This document shows, piece after piece, positions 32,985 through 50,144 of a DNA stretch of 64,000 nt. Where the stretch lies: contig NZ_CP108508.1 in assembly GCF_035917275.1 (NCBI RefSeq), positions 4,154,001 to 4,218,000 of the forward strand, given 5' to 3'. The position numbers and the translations under genes are program-made. How positions within the stretch are numbered: position 1 is the first letter of the stretch; each line of letters opens with the position of its first letter. The notes under the pieces are model-generated. The model had not been told where the DNA came from. It was given only the letters and a program-made list of their open reading frames with translations, and did not search any database. This DNA comes from Streptomyces sp. NBC_01237 (GTDB taxonomy: Bacteria; Actinomycetota; Actinomycetes; Streptomycetales; Streptomycetaceae).

Positions 32985-33072
32985 CCCGAGCCGGAGTTCC
33001 TCGCCCCTGTTCCCGTCAGCGGATCATCCCTGCCGGTCGGCGGCGGGAGCCGGGGCAGCGGCCGGGGCGGGG

Positions 33073-33141
33073 TCAGACATCCAGTTCGATCTCGTAGCGG
33101 GAATCAGGGAATGTCCACGGCCTTGCGCAAGCGCCCCCCAT
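33073..33141 (-). CDS. Possible 22-residue peptide ORF
   Basis: ATG 33141 preceded by GGGGGAA with eight-base spacing encodes MGGACARPWTFPDSRYEIEL followed by DV and stop. The charged ending looks more protein-like than chance, and could be a short peptide or the leftover C-terminus of a lost gene. No homologue known to me; it lies just downstream of the acetyltransferase gene on the same strand. Confidence 0.22.
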   Translation of the reverse strand: MGGACARPWTFPDSRYEIELDV

Positions 33142-33232
33142 ACGCGAATTCCCCCGGCACCCGGGGGTCAACGAGGGCGGCGCGGAATCATTTCCCCCGC
33201 ATACCCGATTCCGGCATCCACGATTCCGATGA

Positions 33233-33751
33233 TCAGGACCTTGAGGAGTCGGACGCCTCCAGGCTCAGGGAAAGCAGCTCTTCGCCGGACGGCCGGAATC
33301 CGAGCCTGCGGTAGAGCGGGGAGCCGGCCTCGGTGGTCTGCAGGACGACCGCTTCGGCGCCCGCCGCGCGGAGCCAGCCGAGGGCGTGGTCCATCACCCG
33401 TGCCCCGAGCCCGCGATGCCGCGACGCCGGGTCGACCACCACGGTCTGCACCCAGCCGGACCGGCCACTGGGACATCGCACGGTCGGGGCACGCTGGTCC
33501 ACGACGGCGACGGCGCAGGCGACCAGGGCATGCGCACCGCCGACCACCGAGACATGCACGGTCTCCTCCTCACCGGCGAGGACACGGCCGAGCCAGGCCC
33601 GGTAGGCGCGCTTCCAGAGGTCGTCCTCCTCGGGGGTACGGGCCACCTGGGCGCCGCTCCCCGAGCTGAGTAGACAGCCGCGCAGGCGCACGAGCTCTTC
33701 TATGTCACCCATGTCGGCCGACCGCGGCTGCGGTTTCTCCTGGGAACTCAT
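33233..33751 (-). CDS. GNAT family N-acetyltransferase
   Basis: 172 residues with the GNAT acetyl-CoA fold: VQTVVVDPASRHRGLGARVM contains the R-x-x-G-x-G/A pyrophosphate-binding loop, followed by ALGWLRAAGAEAVVLQTTEA and the C-terminal LYRRLGF. It transfers acetyl from acetyl-CoA to an amine whose identity is unknown. Start ATG 33751 has only a weak ribosome site; GTG 33778 is an alternative. Divergent from the ALAS-like gene over about 210 bp. Confidence 0.85.
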   Translation of the reverse strand: MSSQEKPQPRSADMGDIEELVRLRGCLLSSGSGAQVARTPEEDDLWKRAYRAWLGRVLAGEEETVHVSVVGGAHALVACAVAVVDQRAPTVRCPSGRSGWVQTVVVDPASRHRGLGARVMDHALGWLRAAGAEAVVLQTTEAGSPLYRRLGFRPSGEELLSLSLEASDSSRS

Positions 33752-33959
33752 ACCGATGGACTTTAGGGCGATACCCACAGCATGAGAAATGGGACCTGTA
33801 CATCATCTATGCACGTGGGGAATGAGTACTTCCGGAGCCGCCCCGACCTCGATTTATGCAGCTTCCGCATGACCCTGCGGATTCGGCATTTCCCTTGCGC
33901 GACAGGCGCCTATACATTCCTGACGTCACGTCCGGAAATCCGTGTTCACCGGAGGGCCA

Positions 33960-35189
33960 GTGTTTCACCACGATGAATTCTTCCTGCCCCCGACCGACAC
34001 GCTCCAGAAGCGGGGCGCCTACCGCACGTTCCTGGAGATCGAGCGCAGAGCCGGCGCCCTCCCCACCACGCTGAAGTACGGCCCCGGCGACGGCAGGCGG
34101 ATCAGCGTGTGGTGCGGCAACGACTGCCTCGGCATGGGGCAGCATCCGCTCGTCCTGGCGGCGAGGAAGAAGGCCACCGACGAGGCGGGCGCCGGCAGCG
34201 GAGGTTCCAGGGACCTCGCGGGCGACGACCGTCACCATGTCGCGCTGGAAGAGGAGTTGGCGGATCTCCACGGCATGGAGTCCGCCCTCATCTTCCCTTC
34301 CGGATACTCGGCGAACGACGCCGCGCTGACGGTACTGGCGGGGCGGCCGCCCGGATGCGTCGTGTTCGCGGACGACCTCAACCACGCCTCGATGACCGCC
34401 GGTATCCAGCACAGCGGGGCCGAGAAGCATGTCTTCCGGCACAACGACACCGACCACCTGGAAGAGCTGCTGGCCGGTACGGAGCCGTCGGTGCCGAAGA
34501 TCATCGCCCTGGAGAGCATCTACGCCATGGGGAGCGACCCCGCACCACTGGAGCGGATCGCCGAACTCGCCCGACACCACGGCGCGTTCACCTATCTCGA
34601 CGAGGCGCACGCGGTGGGCGTCTACGGGCCGCGCGGAGCGGGCCTGGCCGCCGAACGCGGGCTGGGCGGACACTTCGACGTCGTCCGGGGAACGCTGGAG
34701 ATGGCGTTCGGCACGGCGGGCGGCTACATCGCCGGGTCCGGTGCGGTGATCGACGCGGTGCGGAGCTTCGCGTCCGCGTTCCTCTTCACCGCCTCGCTGC
34801 CCCCGGCGGCCGCGGCCGGAGCGCTCGCCGCCGTCCGCCATCTCAAGCGTTCGGACGGGGAGCGGGCCGCGCTGCACCGGAAGGCGGCGCTCCTCCAGGG
34901 ACTGCTGCGCGCCGACGGCATCCCCGTGGCGTCCGAGGCCGCGCACATCGTGCCGGTACTCGTCGGCGACGCCGTCAGGTGCCGCAATGTCGCCCGTCGG
35001 CTCCTGGACCAGTACGCCTGCTATGTCCAGCCCGTCAACGCGCCCAGTGTGCCGGTGGGTTCGGAGCGGCTGCGCATCACCCCCGCGCCGCACCACAGCG
35101 ATGACGAGATCGTGGGCTTCGCCCATGCGCTGGACTCGGTCTGGGAATGCGAGGGACTGCCCCGCACGCTGCGCCGGGTACCCGTGTGA
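33960..35189 (+). CDS. 5-aminolevulinate synthase/alpha-oxoamine synthase-like protein lacking the PLP lysine
   Basis: 409 residues from GTG 33960 (GGAGG just upstream). The whole chain aligns by eye with ALAS: VWCGNDCLGMGQHP, GSGGSRDLAGDDRHHVALE, SGYSANDAA, DDLNHASMTAGI, FRHND, ALESIYAMGSD, TYLDEAHAVGVYGPRG (Asp214 for the PLP ring N), SFASAFLFTASLPPA. At the Schiff-base position, where ALAS reads GTLGKAFG, this protein reads GTLEMAFG: Met248 (codon 34701-34703) replaces Lys and Glu replaces Gly. It should not form the usual internal aldimine. ALAS homologues make C5N units or heme precursor. Its neighbours are AfsA/TetR signalling genes, so a role in that locus is inferred. It may be a pseudoenzyme. 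Confidence 0.85.
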   Translation: MFHHDEFFLPPTDTLQKRGAYRTFLEIERRAGALPTTLKYGPGDGRRISVWCGNDCLGMGQHPLVLAARKKATDEAGAGSGGSRDLAGDDRHHVALEEELADLHGMESALIFPSGYSANDAALTVLAGRPPGCVVFADDLNHASMTAGIQHSGAEKHVFRHNDTDHLEELLAGTEPSVPKIIALESIYAMGSDPAPLERIAELARHHGAFTYLDEAHAVGVYGPRGAGLAAERGLGGHFDVVRGTLEMAFGTAGGYIAGSGAVIDAVRSFASAFLFTASLPPAAAAGALAAVRHLKRSDGERAALHRKAALLQGLLRADGIPVASEAAHIVPVLVGDAVRCRNVARRLLDQYACYVQPVNAPSVPVGSERLRITPAPHHSDDEIVGFAHALDSVWECEGLPRTLRRVPV

Positions 35190-35332: not shown

Positions 35333-36301
35333 TCAGTCCCCCGCCGACGGGGCGGCGAGGGCGGACTCGCGGGTGCCGCAGCGCCGCGCGGCCGGTGCCA
35401 GGACCTGCTGGACCACGCGGACGAACCGATCCGACAGGGGGTGACTGCCCTGGACCGGCCGGATCAGCGAGATGGCGATGCTCGGCCCTCCCCGCAGCGG
35501 CACGAAGGCCACGGAGGGGTGGACATTGCGCCGCAGTACCAGGTCGGGCACCACGCTGATGCCCTTGCCCGCGGCCACCGACTCGATGCACTCGTCGAAG
35601 TTGAGGCAGCACAGCACGGTGCCGGGGCGACGGGCGAGGCCCCAGTCCTTCTGCTGCACGGGGCCGGTGACCTCGTTGAGCACGAGGGGGTACTCGGCCA
35701 GTTCGAACCAGTCCAGCTGCTCCCGTACGGCCAGCGGATGCCGGCGCGGGACGGCGGCGACGTAACGCTCGGTGCCGAGCAGCGTCTCCTTCACCCCGCC
35801 GCGCCGCGGTCGGCCCCGCAGGATCGCCACATCGACGGCCGCCTGGTCGACCCCGGCGCACGCGTCGTCGCGGCGCCGCAGTTCGACGCGGGCGCCGGTC
35901 TCCTCCTCGAAGCGCCGGATGGCCTCGTGGACCCACTCGTCGGGGAGCAGCCAGGAGAACCCGAGCCGCAGAACGGGCGCGGCGCCCTCGGGGAACAGGG
36001 CCTTCTCGAAGCGGGGCAGCAGCACTTGGAGTTCGTCGCGCAGGGCCGCGCCCGCCGGGGTCAGGGAGACCTGGCGGGTGGTGCGCTGGAAGAGCCGCAC
36101 GCCCATGTGCTCTTCGAGACGGCGGATGGACCGGGTCAGGGCGGGCTGGTTGCTCGACATCCTGGCGGCGGCGTGGGTGAAGCTCAGGGTGTCGGCAACG
36201 GCGAGGAAGGCGTGCAGATGCCGCAGGTTGACCCCCGTGATGCGTGCGGTCGGGACGGGGGCTGCGGGTATTCGGGGAGTGTCCTCGGGTTGTTGTGTCA
36301 T
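35333..36301 (-). CDS. LysR family transcriptional regulator
   Basis: 322 residues. Winged HTH at about 25-85 (NLRHLHAFLAVADTLSFTHA ... MSSNQPALTRSIRRLEEHMG) and a periplasmic-binding-fold effector domain with FSWLLPDEWVHEAIRRFEEE, SVVPDLVLRRNV. Its ATG overlaps the AfsA stop (ATGA), so it is translationally coupled to hormone biosynthesis. LysR proteins usually sense a small molecule and often regulate a divergent gene; here none is divergent, so it may act on afsA itself, the receptor/epimerase operon or unlinked clusters. The pairing of LysR with AfsA is noteworthy. Confidence 0.9.
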   Translation of the reverse strand: MTQQPEDTPRIPAAPVPTARITGVNLRHLHAFLAVADTLSFTHAAARMSSNQPALTRSIRRLEEHMGVRLFQRTTRQVSLTPAGAALRDELQVLLPRFEKALFPEGAAPVLRLGFSWLLPDEWVHEAIRRFEEETGARVELRRRDDACAGVDQAAVDVAILRGRPRRGGVKETLLGTERYVAAVPRRHPLAVREQLDWFELAEYPLVLNEVTGPVQQKDWGLARRPGTVLCCLNFDECIESVAAGKGISVVPDLVLRRNVHPSVAFVPLRGGPSIAISLIRPVQGSHPLSDRFVRVVQQVLAPAARRCGTRESALAAPSAGD

Positions 36302-37284
36302 GCCTCTCTGCCTTTCCCTGCGGGTTCGTCGGCCCCGGTCTCCGCCACCGTCGCCGCCGCTGTCGTGGTGACCGTGGCCGCGAAGGCGACACGGCCGGCC
36401 TGCACGGCTTCGACCCGGAGCCGGGCGCGGCCCGCGTCATCGGGGCCGAGGGGCTCGGTGCGGAGCGCACAGGGCACGTCCAGCTCGACGTACTGGGTGA
36501 ACGTGCAGTCCAGGGCGGATATCTCGACCGGACGGCCGCCTCCGCGCATCAGGTCGTACGTCAGTTGGTGCGCCGACTCCAGCAGCAGCATGCCCGGCAC
36601 ATGGTCCACGGGGTGGTCGAAATGGACGGGGTGCGGGGCGAGGACTCTGAGCTGCCTGTCCTCACCCGGAGTGCCGGAGCTGATCACGACATCGTCCTCG
36701 TGCGACCGCCGGACGTCTTCGGCGGCGGCCGGCGCGGGGGCGGGCACCGAACGGGCCATGGCCGCGGACGCGTCGGCGTAGGACCCGCGCAGTCGCCGGT
36801 AGACCCCCGGGGTGTGGGTGGTGAATCTGGTCCGGGCAGTCGCCACTTCGACGCCGCCCCGCGTGATGACCATGCGCATGGAGAGGGCGGCCGGACGGCT
36901 GCCCCGGTACGACAGATCGAAGCACTCGACGTGGAGTTCGACCTCACTGCCGAGGTCCGCACCGTACGCGGCGCTGTCGACCTGGAAGGCGAAGCTCTCC
37001 CAGATGAGCTGATGCCCGATCGGCACCTCGTACGCGGCGTGGCACAGCAGCGGAAAGGTCTGACGGATGGTCTCGCAGAGCAGCAGGGGATCGAACGCCG
37101 TCCCCACACGGTAGAAGGCGTGCGTGGCGGGCCAGTCGGCGACGACGCGGAAGGCGTCGGGCCCTGTCCTGGTCCAGTTCTCGAGGTAGACCTCAGCGGC
37201 GTTCGACTTGTGCACATAGTGCTGCGGCACTTGGTCGATGACTGGGTCGAGGATGCAGTTTCCAGCAGCGTCGTGTGCGGGCAC
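36298..37284 (-). CDS. AfsA-like gamma-butyrolactone/butenolide biosynthesis protein
   Basis: 328 residues from GTG 37284. Two AfsA repeats (hot-dog folds) are clear: VPQHYVHKSNAAEVYLENW with DWPATHAFY, and HPVHFDHPVDHVPGMLLLES followed by AHQLTYDLM. AfsA condenses a beta-ketoacyl-ACP/CoA with dihydroxyacetone phosphate, the key step to gamma-butyrolactone and butenolide hormones. The gene diverges from the receptor-type TetR gene; an ARE-like palindrome sits in the 113-bp spacer, so repression by the receptor and release by the hormone are predicted. Translationally coupled to the downstream lysR gene. Confidence 0.93.
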   Translation of the reverse strand: MPAHDAAGNCILDPVIDQVPQHYVHKSNAAEVYLENWTRTGPDAFRVVADWPATHAFYRVGTAFDPLLLCETIRQTFPLLCHAAYEVPIGHQLIWESFAFQVDSAAYGADLGSEVELHVECFDLSYRGSRPAALSMRMVITRGGVEVATARTRFTTHTPGVYRRLRGSYADASAAMARSVPAPAPAAAEDVRRSHEDDVVISSGTPGEDRQLRVLAPHPVHFDHPVDHVPGMLLLESAHQLTYDLMRGGGRPVEISALDCTFTQYVELDVPCALRTEPLGPDDAGRARLRVEAVQAGRVAFAATVTTTAAATVAETGADEPAGKGREA

Positions 37285-37348: not shown

Positions 37349-37372
37349 AACATAGAGGGAGGTCTCTTTGTT
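37349..37372. promoter_or_regulatory. ARE-like palindrome between afsA-like and receptor genes
   Basis: AACATAGAG (37349-37357) and CTCTTTGTT (37364-37372) form an 8/9 inverted repeat around GGAGGT. The outer ACA...TGTT bases agree with autoregulatory elements bound by gamma-butyrolactone receptors (ArpA/ScbR family). It lies 26 bp before the receptor start and 65 bp from the afsA-like start. Confidence 0.65.
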
Positions 37373-37397
37373 TGTCGAGAAAGCATGGGTCATCCTG

Positions 37398-38027
37398 ATG
37401 AAGTCCAAACCACCACAGGAACGTGCCGTCCGGACCCGGAGGGCCCTCCTCAGGGCCGCGGCCGAGTGTTTCGACGAATGCGGATATTACGGGGCGGGTA
37501 CCAACAAAATCCTCGCCCGCGCGGGCATGACGCAGGGCGCCATGTACTTCCACTTCAAATCGAAGGAGGAACTGGCGCACGCGGTCATGCTGGAGCAGGC
37601 GGCCGACCTGGAACTGCCCGCGGAACCACGGGGGTTGCAACAGTTGGTGAACGTCACCCTCATGCTGGCCGTGGAGATGCAGAACAATGTTCTGCTGCGC
37701 GCCGGAGTGCGGCTCGCCGTGGACCCCGCGGGACCGGCCCGGCACGACGACTCGATCTACTCCTGGTGGGCGGCGCTCTTCCACAAGGAGCTGGTGGTGG
37801 CCAGGGCGGCGGGTGAACTCCGCGACGACGTCGACGAGAAGAGCTTCTCGCAGACACTCGTCGGCGCGTACACCGGGACGCAGCTGATGTCGGAGATAAC
37901 GACGGGCCGCTCGGACCTGACCCTGCGCATCACGAACCTGTGGCGCTTCCTGCTGCCCGGCATCGCCACACCCGAGATGCTCGCCGCACTCGACCTGAAC
38001 GGCGTGCCCGTGAGGGAAACGGGGTGA
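37398..38027 (+). CDS. TetR-family gamma-butyrolactone receptor-type repressor (ScbR/ArpA-like)
   Basis: 209 residues. N-terminal HTH with family signature ERAVRTRRALLRAAAECFDE and ILARAGMTQGAMYFHFKSKE, where GALYFHF is typical of butyrolactone receptors. The C-terminal ligand domain retains the tryptophan-containing helix YSWWAALFHKELVVARAAGE, matching the conserved Trp that contacts ligand in CprB/ArpA. It probably binds the ARE upstream of itself and afsA and releases DNA on hormone binding. ATG 37398 starts the conserved region; a TTG ten codons upstream is an alternative. Its stop overlaps the epimerase start (GTGA). Confidence 0.9.
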   Translation: MKSKPPQERAVRTRRALLRAAAECFDECGYYGAGTNKILARAGMTQGAMYFHFKSKEELAHAVMLEQAADLELPAEPRGLQQLVNVTLMLAVEMQNNVLLRAGVRLAVDPAGPARHDDSIYSWWAALFHKELVVARAAGELRDDVDEKSFSQTLVGAYTGTQLMSEITTGRSDLTLRITNLWRFLLPGIATPEMLAALDLNGVPVRETG

Positions 38028-38959
38028 CCGGCACCCGGATCGTCGTCACCGGTGGCACGGGGTTCATCGGCGCGCATGTCGCCAAGGAGCTGCTCGCCCG
38101 TGACGGGGTGACGGTCCGCTTCGCCGGCCGGCGTCCGGTCCACGCCGGCACACCGGGCGTGGAGTGGGTACGGGCCGAACTCACCGACTCCGGCTCGCTG
38201 CACGGGATCTGCGAGGACGCCGACGTACTGGTCCACCTGGCGTCCAAGGTCTCCGGGACCGAGGAGAGCTGCCGCGCCGTGAACGAGGCGGGCACCGCGG
38301 CCCTCATGGCGGAGGCGGTACGCGCCGGGACACCGCGCGTCGTGCATCTGTCCACCACGGCGGTCTACGGCCGGGGCCCGCACACCGGCCAGGACATTCC
38401 CGACCTCACCCCCGCCCCGGTGTCGGCCGCCAGCGCGACGCGGCTCGCGGGCGAACAGCACGCACTGCGGGCCGGAGCGGTGGTGCTCCGCGCCGGGCTG
38501 GTCCTGGGAACGGGCGACCTCTGGGTCGTCACCGCGCTGGCCGAGCTGCTGAAGCGCGTGCCCGGCCGGTGGGCGGGCGGAGCCGCCTCGCTGTCGGTCG
38601 TGGACGCGTCGGACCTGGGGCGGCTGATCACCGCAGTCGCCCTGGCACCCGCACCACCGGGGCCCGCGGTCTTCCACGCGGCGCATCCCCGGCCGGTACG
38701 GATCGGCGACCTGGTCGCGGCCCTCGCCGAGCACGGGATCGTGCCCCCTCCCGCCGACGAGGACTGGTCCTGGGACCGTTGCCTCCAGGAGCACGCCGGC
38801 CGTCCGGGGATCGTGAGCGAGAGACAGTTCCATCTCCTCGCGCAGGACCACTGGTACCGGTCCGACGCGGTCTGGCAGCGCACCGGAGTGGAACCGGGCC
38901 CCGGCCCCCTCGACCGGCTGGCCGCCTCGGCCGACTGGTACCGCACGCTGCTGGCCTGA
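38024..38959 (+). CDS. NAD-dependent epimerase/dehydratase family protein
   Basis: 311 residues. Rossmann motif VVTGGTGFIGAHVAKELL near the N-terminus, then ASKVSGTEESCRAVNEAGT and a catalytic Ser/Thr-Tyr arrangement (HLSTTAVYGRGPH) though the usual Y-x-x-x-K has SAASATRLAGEQ further on rather than a Lys, so activity type is uncertain. Overlaps the receptor gene and is therefore co-expressed with it. Comparable oxidoreductases tailor the keto group of butenolide/butyrolactone hormones, so a reductase/epimerase step in that pathway is inferred. Confidence 0.85.
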   Translation: MTGTRIVVTGGTGFIGAHVAKELLARDGVTVRFAGRRPVHAGTPGVEWVRAELTDSGSLHGICEDADVLVHLASKVSGTEESCRAVNEAGTAALMAEAVRAGTPRVVHLSTTAVYGRGPHTGQDIPDLTPAPVSAASATRLAGEQHALRAGAVVLRAGLVLGTGDLWVVTALAELLKRVPGRWAGGAASLSVVDASDLGRLITAVALAPAPPGPAVFHAAHPRPVRIGDLVAALAEHGIVPPPADEDWSWDRCLQEHAGRPGIVSERQFHLLAQDHWYRSDAVWQRTGVEPGPGPLDRLAASADWYRTLLA

Positions 38960-44158: not shown

Positions 44159-45382
44159 TCACTTCCCCTTCGGCACCTCGGCCAGCACCTCGGCCAGGAC
44201 GCGCGCCGCCCGTTCCGCGTCCGCGAACCCCACGTACAGCGGAGTGAACCCGAACCGCAGGACATCCGGTCGCCGCAGATCACCGACGACGCCCCGCTCG
44301 ATGAGCGCCCGCATCACCGGTTCGGCCTCCGCGCAGCGCAGCGCGACCTGGCTGCCGCGCTCCGCGTGCGCGAGAGGGGTGACCGAGCCGACCCGGCCGT
44401 CCGGCACATACGCGGCGACGCACTCCAGGAAGAAGTCCGTCAGCGCGAGGGACTTGGCCCGTACGGACTCGACGGACACCCCGTCCCAGACGTCCAGCGA
44501 GGCCTCCAGCGCCAGCATGGACAGGATGTCCGGGGTGCCGACCCGGCCCCGTACCGCACCGTCCGCCGGGGCGTACCCCGGCGTCATCGCGAACGGGTCC
44601 GCGTGCGACGTCCACCCCGGCAGGGGCGAGTCGAAGGCGGCCTGATGACGCTCGGCGACGTACAGGTAGGCGGGCGAACCGGGGCCGCCGTTCAGGTACT
44701 TGTACGTGCAGCCGACGGCCAGGTCCACCCCGTGCGCGTCCAGGCCGACCGGCAGGGCGCCCGCGCTGTGGCACAGGTCCCAGACCGCGAGGCCGCCCGC
44801 CGCGTGCACGGCGGCGGTCAGCCCGGGGAGGTCGTGGAGCCTGCCGGTGCGGTAGTCGACGTGGTTGAGCAGGACGAGGGCCGTACGGGGGCCCAGCGCG
44901 TCCGTCACCTCGGCGGGTGCGACCGGGACGATCCGGTGGCCGGTCATCCGGGCGGCGGACTCGGCGATGTACCCGTCCGTGGGAAACGTCGTCGCGTCAA
45001 CAAGGATCTCGTCGCGTCCGTCCGTCGCCAGCCGGCTCGCGGCGACGACCGCCTTGAAGACGTTCACGCTGGTCGAGTCGCCGACGACGATCTGCCCGGC
45101 GGCGGCCCCGACGAGCGGCGCGATCCGGTCGCCGATCCGTTCGGGCGCGGTCCACCAGCCGCTCTCGTCCCAGGACCGGATGCGCAGCTCGCCCCACTGG
45201 CGGGTGAGGACGTCCTGGACGCGGGCGGGTACATGGGCCGGCAGCGCACCCAGGGAGTTGCCGTCCAGGTAGACGGTGTCGTCGAGGGTGAACAGGGCGC
45301 GCCGGGAGGCGAGTTCGTCGGCGGCGTCGAGCGCGGCGGCCCGCGCGGCGAGGCCCGTCGTGGCCGTGGTGGTGTCAGACAT
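44159..45382 (-). CDS. kynU: Kynureninase
   Basis: 407 residues, standard length. A fold-type I PLP enzyme that cleaves kynurenine to anthranilate and alanine. The PLP lysine is Lys228 in VGCTYKYLNGGPGSPAYLYV, and the Asp/His of VWDLCHSAGALPVGLDAHGV line the cofactor. Start ATG 45382 overlaps the dioxygenase stop by 8 bp, indicating coupling. No kynurenine 3-monooxygenase gene is present, so the operon should yield anthranilate. Confidence 0.95.
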   Translation of the reverse strand: MSDTTTATTGLAARAAALDAADELASRRALFTLDDTVYLDGNSLGALPAHVPARVQDVLTRQWGELRIRSWDESGWWTAPERIGDRIAPLVGAAAGQIVVGDSTSVNVFKAVVAASRLATDGRDEILVDATTFPTDGYIAESAARMTGHRIVPVAPAEVTDALGPRTALVLLNHVDYRTGRLHDLPGLTAAVHAAGGLAVWDLCHSAGALPVGLDAHGVDLAVGCTYKYLNGGPGSPAYLYVAERHQAAFDSPLPGWTSHADPFAMTPGYAPADGAVRGRVGTPDILSMLALEASLDVWDGVSVESVRAKSLALTDFFLECVAAYVPDGRVGSVTPLAHAERGSQVALRCAEAEPVMRALIERGVVGDLRRPDVLRFGFTPLYVGFADAERAARVLAEVLAEVPKGK

Positions 45383-48980: not shown

Positions 48981-50144
48981 CTACCGCACCGCCCCCACCC
49001 CCCGTATCAACGCCTCCACCCCCGCCCCCACCTTGCTCCGCGGACACCCCACATTCAGCCGCAGGAACCCCTCCGCCCCGTACACCGCCCCCGGCATGAT
49101 CGCGACCTTCTCCCGCTCGATCAGCACCCGCTGCAACGCCTCGTCGTCCACGCCCAGCGGCCGCAGGTCGATCCACGCCAGGTAGCCCGCCTGCGGCGGC
49201 TGCCAGCCCAGCTCGGGGAAGGCCGTGTTCAGCCGTTCCGCGACCAGCTCCAGGTTCCCCGCCACATACGCCCGCACCGCGTCCAGCCACGGCCCGCCGT
49301 CCCGGTACGCCGCGATGTGCGCGGTCAGCGAGAGCACGGCCGGCGAGGCCAGCCCCTCCGCCGTCTCCATGCGCCGCAGGAACTCCGCCCGGTCGGCCGG
49401 ATCGCCGACGATCCCGTACGAACCCGTCAGCGCCGGAAAGTTGAACGACTTCGACGCGGAGCTGATCACCGCCCAGCGCCCCTCGCCACCCACCCGCGTC
49501 CACGGCACGTGCCGGTACCCCTCATGGACGAAGTCCGCGTGGATCTCGTCACTGATCACCGCCACCCCGTGCCGCCGGGCCGACTCCGCCATGGCCTCCA
49601 GCTCGGCCTCCGTCCACACCCGCCCGGTCGGATTGTGCGGCGAACACAGCACGAGCACCTTCGCGTCCGCCCGCGCCAGCTCCCGCTCCAGCGCCTCCGC
49701 GTCGCCCACCGGAACGCCCCGCAGCTCCCGCCCGAGCCCGGTGACCGCCTTGCGGAAACCGTCGTACGTGGGGGTGTGGACGACGACCCCGTCGCCCTTG
49801 AGCGTCCACATCTGCAACAGCTGCGAGAGCTGGCTGAGCACCGAGGGCGCGTAGACGAGCCGGTCCGTGTCGATCGTGGTGCCGTAGCGGGTCGCGTACC
49901 AGTGGGCTATCGCCGACCGGAAGTCGTCCTGCTGCCAGGTGGTGTAGCCGAACACCCCGTGATCGAGACGGGCCCGCAGCGCGCTCAGCACCTCGGGCGC
50001 CGTCTCGAAGTCCATGTCGGAGATGGTGAACGGCAGCAGACCGTCCACTCCGAACCGGTCGGCGACCCCGTCCCACTGGACGCACCAGGTACCGCGGCGG
50101 TCGACGACGGTGTCGAAGTCGTAGGACGAAATCGGCGTACTCAC
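48981..50144 (-). CDS. MalY/PatB-type aminotransferase (probable cystathionine beta-lyase)
   Basis: 387 residues, fold-type I PLP enzyme. The N-terminal FTISDMDFETAPEVLSALRA and YTTWQQDDFRSAIAHW typify the MalY/PatB group, and Lys232 in ISSASKSFNFPALTGSYGIV binds PLP; SPHNPTGRVWTEAEL and ISDEIHADFV complete the site. Such enzymes cleave carbon-sulphur bonds of cystathionine or related amino acids. Monocistronic: repeats downstream, and the aldolase terminator upstream. Confidence 0.9.
   Translation of the reverse strand: MSTPISSYDFDTVVDRRGTWCVQWDGVADRFGVDGLLPFTISDMDFETAPEVLSALRARLDHGVFGYTTWQQDDFRSAIAHWYATRYGTTIDTDRLVYAPSVLSQLSQLLQMWTLKGDGVVVHTPTYDGFRKAVTGLGRELRGVPVGDAEALERELARADAKVLVLCSPHNPTGRVWTEAELEAMAESARRHGVAVISDEIHADFVHEGYRHVPWTRVGGEGRWAVISSASKSFNFPALTGSYGIVGDPADRAEFLRRMETAEGLASPAVLSLTAHIAAYRDGGPWLDAVRAYVAGNLELVAERLNTAFPELGWQPPQAGYLAWIDLRPLGVDDEALQRVLIEREKVAIMPGAVYGAEGFLRLNVGCPRSKVGAGVEALIRGVGAVR

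Follow-up and report, generated by a model that had tools for sequence, protein, structure and literature searches.

Does a gene of the 5-aminolevulinate synthase (ALAS) family that has lost its PLP-binding lysine still encode something of use to the cell, and if so, of what kind? The question is raised by one gene in a 64,000-nucleotide stretch of Streptomyces sp. NBC_01237 (contig NZ_CP108508.1), referred to here as the window. An original prediction made from the letters of the window had pointed to a methionine in place of this lysine, and offered a pseudoenzyme, a non-catalytic partner and a reworked catalyst as explanations. In this paper, we compare the gene, its neighbours and its relatives across genomes and weigh these readings against each other.

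Protein identity and the lysine position

The gene, which we class as coding for an ALAS-like pseudoenzyme, lies at 33960..35189 on the forward strand and encodes 409 amino acids, its orthologs having 409-410; an alternative GTG start at 33942 would give 415. Residues are numbered here from GTG 33942, and the listed orthologs start at GTG 33960. The protein matches the 5-aminolevulinate synthase model TIGR01821 over its full length (495.1 bits, cut-off 338.55) and aligns with the ALAS of R. capsulatus (2bwn) and human (5qqq) with no local gaps, which upholds the family assignment first proposed; M254 stands opposite the PLP lysine.

The codons at 34695-34706 on the forward strand, CTG (34695-34697), GAG (34698-34700), ATG (34701-34703) and GCG (34704-34706), yield GTLEMAFG, with the Met at residue 254 (248 when counted from GTG 33960). 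The same Glu and Met occur in G199, a second genome labelled as the same species as the window genome (G000), and the lysine of GTLxKAFG is absent from both. The usual ALAS motif is GTL(A/G)KAFG, and close relatives of the window protein read GTLAKAFG; a change from GTLGKAFG to GTLEMAFG had been proposed, of which the Lys to Met replacement and the Glu hold, but the residue next to the lysine was Ala in close relatives and not Gly. A relocated lysine was rejected, as no position is Lys in the window protein and non-Lys in its relative P0003. In mouse ALAS2, mutation of the PLP lysine abolishes measurable activity (PMC3981678). With this lysine gone, ordinary PLP catalysis would be lost, in agreement with the original prediction, and the protein should no longer be able to form an internal aldimine or to make an alpha-aminoketone.

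Distribution of the lysine loss

The query was compared with the best 120 of 7430 homologues (121 proteins). The lysine is kept in 119 of the 121, the exceptions being the query and P0002, the representative of a 99% identical cluster in which 11 sequences were counted. It is likewise kept in 99 of 100 other ALAS loci, which amount to 97 distinct places because three genomes occur twice; the exception, locus L011, comes from G199 and reads GGA ACG CTG GAG ATG GCG TTC GGC, identical to the window. The nearest Lys-bearing relatives among those listed are P0003 (86%), P0004 (82%) and the ortholog of genome G227 (84% to the window protein), which reads GCGAAG where the window has GAGATG, and identity to Lys-bearing members spans 51-86%. 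Searches of the genus, the family and relatives returned no further Met genome; a scan of genome contigs returned 80 loci, mostly from Proteobacteria and none from the close clade.

The original prediction had asked whether Met/Glu is conserved among ALAS homologues adjacent to AfsA, and had counted a lysine in close homologues of the same locus against itself. The pair is confined to the window/G199 lineage, and close homologues at the same locus in G227 and G502 have the lysine. A family-wide Met/Glu motif was rejected, since all 119 other proteins in this set carry Lys. As far as these sequences reach, the loss is a trait of the lineage and not of the family.

Locus organization

The ALAS-like gene is followed by genes for a LysR-type regulator (35333..36301, reverse strand; PF03466, PF00126), an AfsA/ScbA-family butyrolactone synthase homologue (36298..37284, reverse; NF041195, 289 bits, cut-off 200), a ScbR/ArpA-family autoregulator receptor (37368..38027, forward; NF041196, 206 bits, cut-off 150), an NAD-dependent epimerase/dehydratase family protein (38027..38959, forward, the ORF opening at 37940; PF01370) and a cytochrome P450 (39487..40692, reverse; PF00067). 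The AfsA homologue bears out the AfsA-adjacent placement given earlier. On the other side, a GNAT acetyltransferase gene (33233..33778, reverse; PF00583 and synteny) is the last intact gene of a divergent operon, and its 3' end now runs into a scar. The order GNAT, ALAS, LysR, AfsA, receptor, epimerase-like, P450 is identical in the window, G199 and G227. G502 retains GNAT, ALAS (with Lys), LysR and the receptor, and G556 has none of these near its ALAS. In G502 (L113 10127-10318) AfsA is reduced to a 66-residue match beside the kept receptor gene. Among the papers listed in literature searches, none joins ALAS to AfsA; a study of an NRPS-made alkyloxazole (PMC13367870) was set aside as not relevant.

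An imperfect inverted repeat upstream of the ALAS-like gene (33856-33889, 14-nt arms, 6-nt gap) is a possible operator, and kynureninase-like and class I/II aminotransferase-like genes lie farther along the window at 44159-45382 and 48981-50144.

After GNAT, G227 and G502 carry genes for a Gfo/Idh oxidoreductase, an asparagine-synthase-like protein and an MFS transporter. A small conserved cluster of ALAS, GNAT, Gfo/Idh, asparagine-synthase-like, MFS, LysR and ArpA-type receptor genes can be outlined there (L104 9854-15355, L113 2310-7646), and it occurs in Streptomyces and Kitasatospora and also, to judge from the organism name Marinactinospora thermotolerans shared by the ALAS and Gfo/Idh lists, in Marinactinospora. 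Among the 29 clade representatives of ALAS that were listed (P0003-P0031), eleven lie on a contig equal in size to that of a listed Gfo/Idh homologue (sizes 17983, 65932, 21120, 200501, 288117, 449265, 8916028, 329922, 110758, 571979 and 11570), equal size being a proxy for the same contig and the lists having been compared by eye. One homologue of 597 amino acids, P0183, has both Gfo/Idh and Aminotran_1_2 domains and is a possible fusion of two cluster-type parts.

The deletion scar

Neither Met genome has the Gfo/Idh, asparagine-synthase-like or MFS gene at this locus, a deletion of neighbouring pathway genes that had escaped the original prediction. What is left on the reverse strand is a decayed 5' remnant of the Gfo/Idh gene (33098..33259, start approximate; blastn to L104 10394-10579 and a 36-aa tblastn match), fused to a 29-nt 3' remnant of the asparagine-synthase-like gene (33069..33097; L104 13556-13584), and a possible 3' scrap of the MFS gene (33024..33072; L104 15310-15358, 75.5% over 49 nt, E 1.7e-4), the last a weak, G+C-rich match. 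The junction is identical in the window and G199: the gfo/idh part stops at L104 10579, and the sequence goes on at L104 13556, corresponding to the terminal 25 nt of the asparagine-synthase-like gene. A genome-wide search for Gfo/Idh came out empty at E≤1e-10 for G000 and G199 and gave matches in G227 and G502; for the asparagine-synthase-like protein, G000 and G199 have only paralogues of ≤55%, of a kind that G227 has as well, and G502 has an 82% ortholog. The MFS loss was assessed at the locus only. On this comparison, the deletion and the lysine loss are both shown to predate the split of the window strain from G199.

Constraint after the lysine loss

In 101 of the 409 columns, 98% or more of 117 relatives agree. 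Changes on the Met lineage fall on these columns 11 times in 45 (uniform expectation 24.7%; binomial p 1.0), the 45 comprising 34 on the stem (start codon included), 10 in the window and 1 in G199, against none of the 36 changes on the Lys-bearing side (Fisher p 0.0009). The constraint of a working ALAS has therefore gone, while that on the whole chain stayed.

Between the window and G199, 48 codons differ, 16 of them changing the amino acid, and the Nei-Gojobori dN/dS is 0.177. With G227 as outgroup, nonsynonymous (N) and synonymous (S) changes number 10:11 on the window tip, 1:10 on the G199 tip and 5:11 where the branch could not be resolved; under a neutral N fraction of 0.73, the probabilities are 0.012 for the window tip, 1.7e-5 for the G199 tip and 1.1e-8 for the 16 of 48. 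The window strain looks looser than G199 in its N:S ratio (Fisher p 0.05). A four-taxon codon model gave an omega of 0.246 on the stem, 0.091 on the tips and 0.042 elsewhere, the last being rough because the background branches are saturated. A single omega was rejected (p 7.6e-6), as was an omega of 1 on the tips (p 1.7e-15) and, weakly, on the stem (p 0.012); a seven-taxon run agreed. Among control genes, LysR (p 0.16) and GNAT (p 0.87) had no branch effect, and the receptor gene does show one (p 0.0095, with a stem of zero length). The dS of ALAS between the window and G199, 0.109, is the highest of ten genes compared (range 0.016-0.109), so recombination may confuse the selection estimate.

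Insertions and deletions were counted as well. Between the two strains, the scar has 38 differences in 324 sites and 4 internal indels, and ALAS has 50 in 1227 and no indel; by simple arithmetic, about 15 indels (15.1) would be expected in ALAS at the scar rate (P about 3e-7), or 22.7 when the two end gaps of the scar are added to make 6. A pseudogene was looked for as an interrupted frame or neutral evolution: the frame is open in the window and G199, and neutral tips were rejected. The Met ALAS gene has stayed under purifying selection after the loss of its lysine.

A retained pseudoenzyme or a slow decay

Of the four marks of a pseudoenzyme, fold homology, loss of a catalytic residue and retention by selection are supported here, the fourth being a non-catalytic function; of the three explanations first offered, a pseudoenzyme fits best. 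The reading that we prefer, at a probability of about 0.55, is a pseudoenzyme derived from ALAS and specific to this lineage, which was orphaned when its pathway went, would be unable to do ALAS chemistry, and is probably kept for a non-catalytic role. The ancestor would have been a Lys-bearing ALAS-family enzyme serving the small cluster described above. Before the window strain and G199 parted, their common ancestor would have lost Gfo/Idh, asparagine-synthase-like and MFS genes from the locus by deletion and, earlier or later, the Schiff-base lysine and several other active-site residues of its ALAS. The Met protein may then have been kept for its fold or for a residual ligand pocket (His148, Asp220, His223, Thr251, Thr283), with a non-catalytic job that we can only guess at; in the butyrolactone-signalling locus it might, for example, bind a protein partner or a small molecule. 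Any such role is suggested only by the pattern of selection in two strains. Since the gene still looks protected by selection, a retained non-catalytic protein is probable, rather than a new enzyme family.

The main rival, clearly less probable though to be taken seriously, is a slowly decaying remnant: the cluster is dead, ALAS is useless, and the frame is open as the loss is recent or misfolding is costly. The deleted neighbours, the catalytic and conserved columns struck at an unconstrained rate, the raised stem omega, the 10:11 ratio of the window tip and the odd changes in P0002 are all consistent with it. P0002 differs from the window protein at five residues, four of them (G85A, G87R, A149P, G240Q) in columns where 98% or more of the other sequences agree, and these four changes look like decay or sequencing error. 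Deviations at the 101 conserved columns number 15 in P0002 and 11 in the window protein, followed by P0114 (8) and P0106 (6), against a leave-one-out mean of 0.86 over the 121 proteins. The rejection of neutral tips and the zero indels against about 15 expected argue the other way, and the G199 tip is constrained as strongly as the Lys-bearing branches. ALAS constraint lost with chain constraint kept would be the pattern of a pseudoenzyme with another duty, and slow decay could give the first part but hardly the second.

Changed and kept residues of the pocket

Roles in ALAS are ascribed to Tyr121, Asn85/Asn150 and Ser189/Ser254. Changes common to the window and G199 include Ser59Gly, Tyr62Cys, Asn91Asp, Ile152Thr, Ser195Ala, Ala253Glu, Lys254Met, Ile281Leu, Thr284Ala and Ile365Val. 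On the forward strand, TGC (34125..34127) replaces the conserved Tyr62 of NDYLG, ACC (Thr152, 34395..34397) a conserved Ile and GCC (Ala284, 34791..34793) a Thr, these positions mapping through an ungapped stretch of alignment to Tyr199, Ile289 and Thr421 of human ALAS2; by sequence comparison, GAC (Asp91, 34212..34214) replaces a conserved Asn and GCC (Ala195, 34524..34526) a conserved Ser. Tyr199His and Ile289Thr, the latter the same change as here, appear in a table of ALAS2 disease mutations, Tyr199His being an anaemia mutation (PMC8892079), and Thr421 contacts the PLP phosphate from the other subunit (PMC7272653).

The lineage keeps His148, Asp220, His223, Thr251, Ser120 and Thr283, and the PLP contact Val222 has become Ala in the window only. 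Over 11 PLP-contact positions taken from human ALAS2, the window protein agrees with P0003 at 8 and G199 at 9. The loss of Lys254 was accompanied by changes at Tyr62, Asn91, Ser195 and Thr284, so that the pocket is only partly preserved, and the earlier view that selection had kept it, based on the Asp and His residues, is not supported. Two sequences that had been read as intact ALAS motifs are altered as well: NDCLGMGQHP is NDYLGMGQHP in ALAS, so that Tyr62 is lost too, and LDEAHAVG is usually LDEVHAVG, the V222A change being absent from G199.

A reworked catalyst, with Lys-independent chemistry in the pocket and Glu253 or a His as acid-base, is improbable. The kept His148, Asp220 and His223, the adjacent Ala to Glu and Lys to Met changes and the ongoing constraint would suit it, but changes at conserved columns show no excess over chance (11 of 45 against 24.7%), for which reason remodelling of the active site through enriched changes was rejected; its partner enzymes are deleted, its substrate is without evidence, and positive evidence for this option of the original prediction is lacking.

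Paralogues and haem synthesis

The window genome encodes a glutamyl-tRNA reductase (TIGR01035), and haem is therefore independent of the ALAS-like protein. No Lys-bearing ALAS was found in this genome; its only other relatives are two proteins 31% and 38% identical, presumably of Kbl and BioF type, the first keeping GTLGKALG. A role as Lys-less partner to a different alpha-oxoamine synthase, in the way that SPT1/LCB1 serves SPT2, has a precedent in the family (PMC6148460) and is nevertheless very unlikely: the same two relatives are all that the window genome and G199 can offer, G227 has both of them in addition to a Lys-bearing ALAS, and no paralogue adjoins the ALAS-like gene. The partner option of the original prediction is disfavoured by the same lack of a Lys-bearing ALAS. 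A sequencing or assembly error, for which it may be said that GCGAAG and GAGATG differ by only two nucleotides, is refuted in practice, since the same codons occur in G199 despite 50 other differences in the gene and many changes accompany the lysine loss.

Implications

With a lineage-specific pseudoenzyme as the preferred reading, the locus offers a dated, within-genus case of a catalytic lysine lost while the frame remains under selection. The syntenic orthologs with intact active sites, together with the scar of the cluster loss, make it testable whether a new role is gained at once when a pathway dies. It is a more tentative and rather doubtful proposal that an enzyme of the ALAS family turned, within one Streptomyces species and after the pathway deletion, into a non-catalytic, Lys-less protein with a regulatory or ligand-binding part in the butyrolactone-signalling locus; if true, it would be a recent natural conversion of enzyme to pseudoenzyme with active sister orthologs for comparison. 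For the window gene, the annotation 5-aminolevulinate synthase is wrong, and ALAS genes used as markers of C5N metabolites can be dead.

Comparison with known systems

The window protein resembles 5-aminolevulinate synthase (TIGR01821) in whole-length homology, fold motifs and His148, Asp220 and His223, and differs from it in having neither the Schiff-base Lys nor the NDYLG Tyr and in the changes at Asn91, Ser195 and Thr284. With the cyclizing ALAS (cALAS) of C5N-unit clusters (PMC4525017), it shares Ser89 and Ser369 at the T83S and T365S positions, both present in 29 of 29 clade members (P0003-P0031), whereas Ile155 (28 of 29) and Asp246 are classical-like. Of the four cALAS markers (T83S, I149L/V, Asp to Thr, T365S) two are therefore present, the residues being S, I, D and S at 89, 155, 246 and 369; Ile155 and Asp246 are our own mapping of I149 and the aspartate marker, the number D231 given in the paper not fitting the column. 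An amide synthase or aminolevulinate ligase, the partners of cALAS, was absent from the 17 window ORFs that were scanned with Pfam, a part of those in the window.

The moeA5-type ALAS gene of moenomycin (PMC4525017) is likewise a Streptomyces secondary-metabolite ALAS, reported as non-functional in a damaged cluster, but there a second C5N locus takes over, of which none was found here. SPT1/LCB1 of serine palmitoyltransferase (PMC6148460) is, as is the window protein, an alpha-oxoamine synthase family member without the PLP lysine. In SPT1 the remaining catalytic residues are missing as well, and its partner SPT2 is Lys-bearing; the window protein, for which no such Lys-bearing partner was found, has kept its other catalytic residues.
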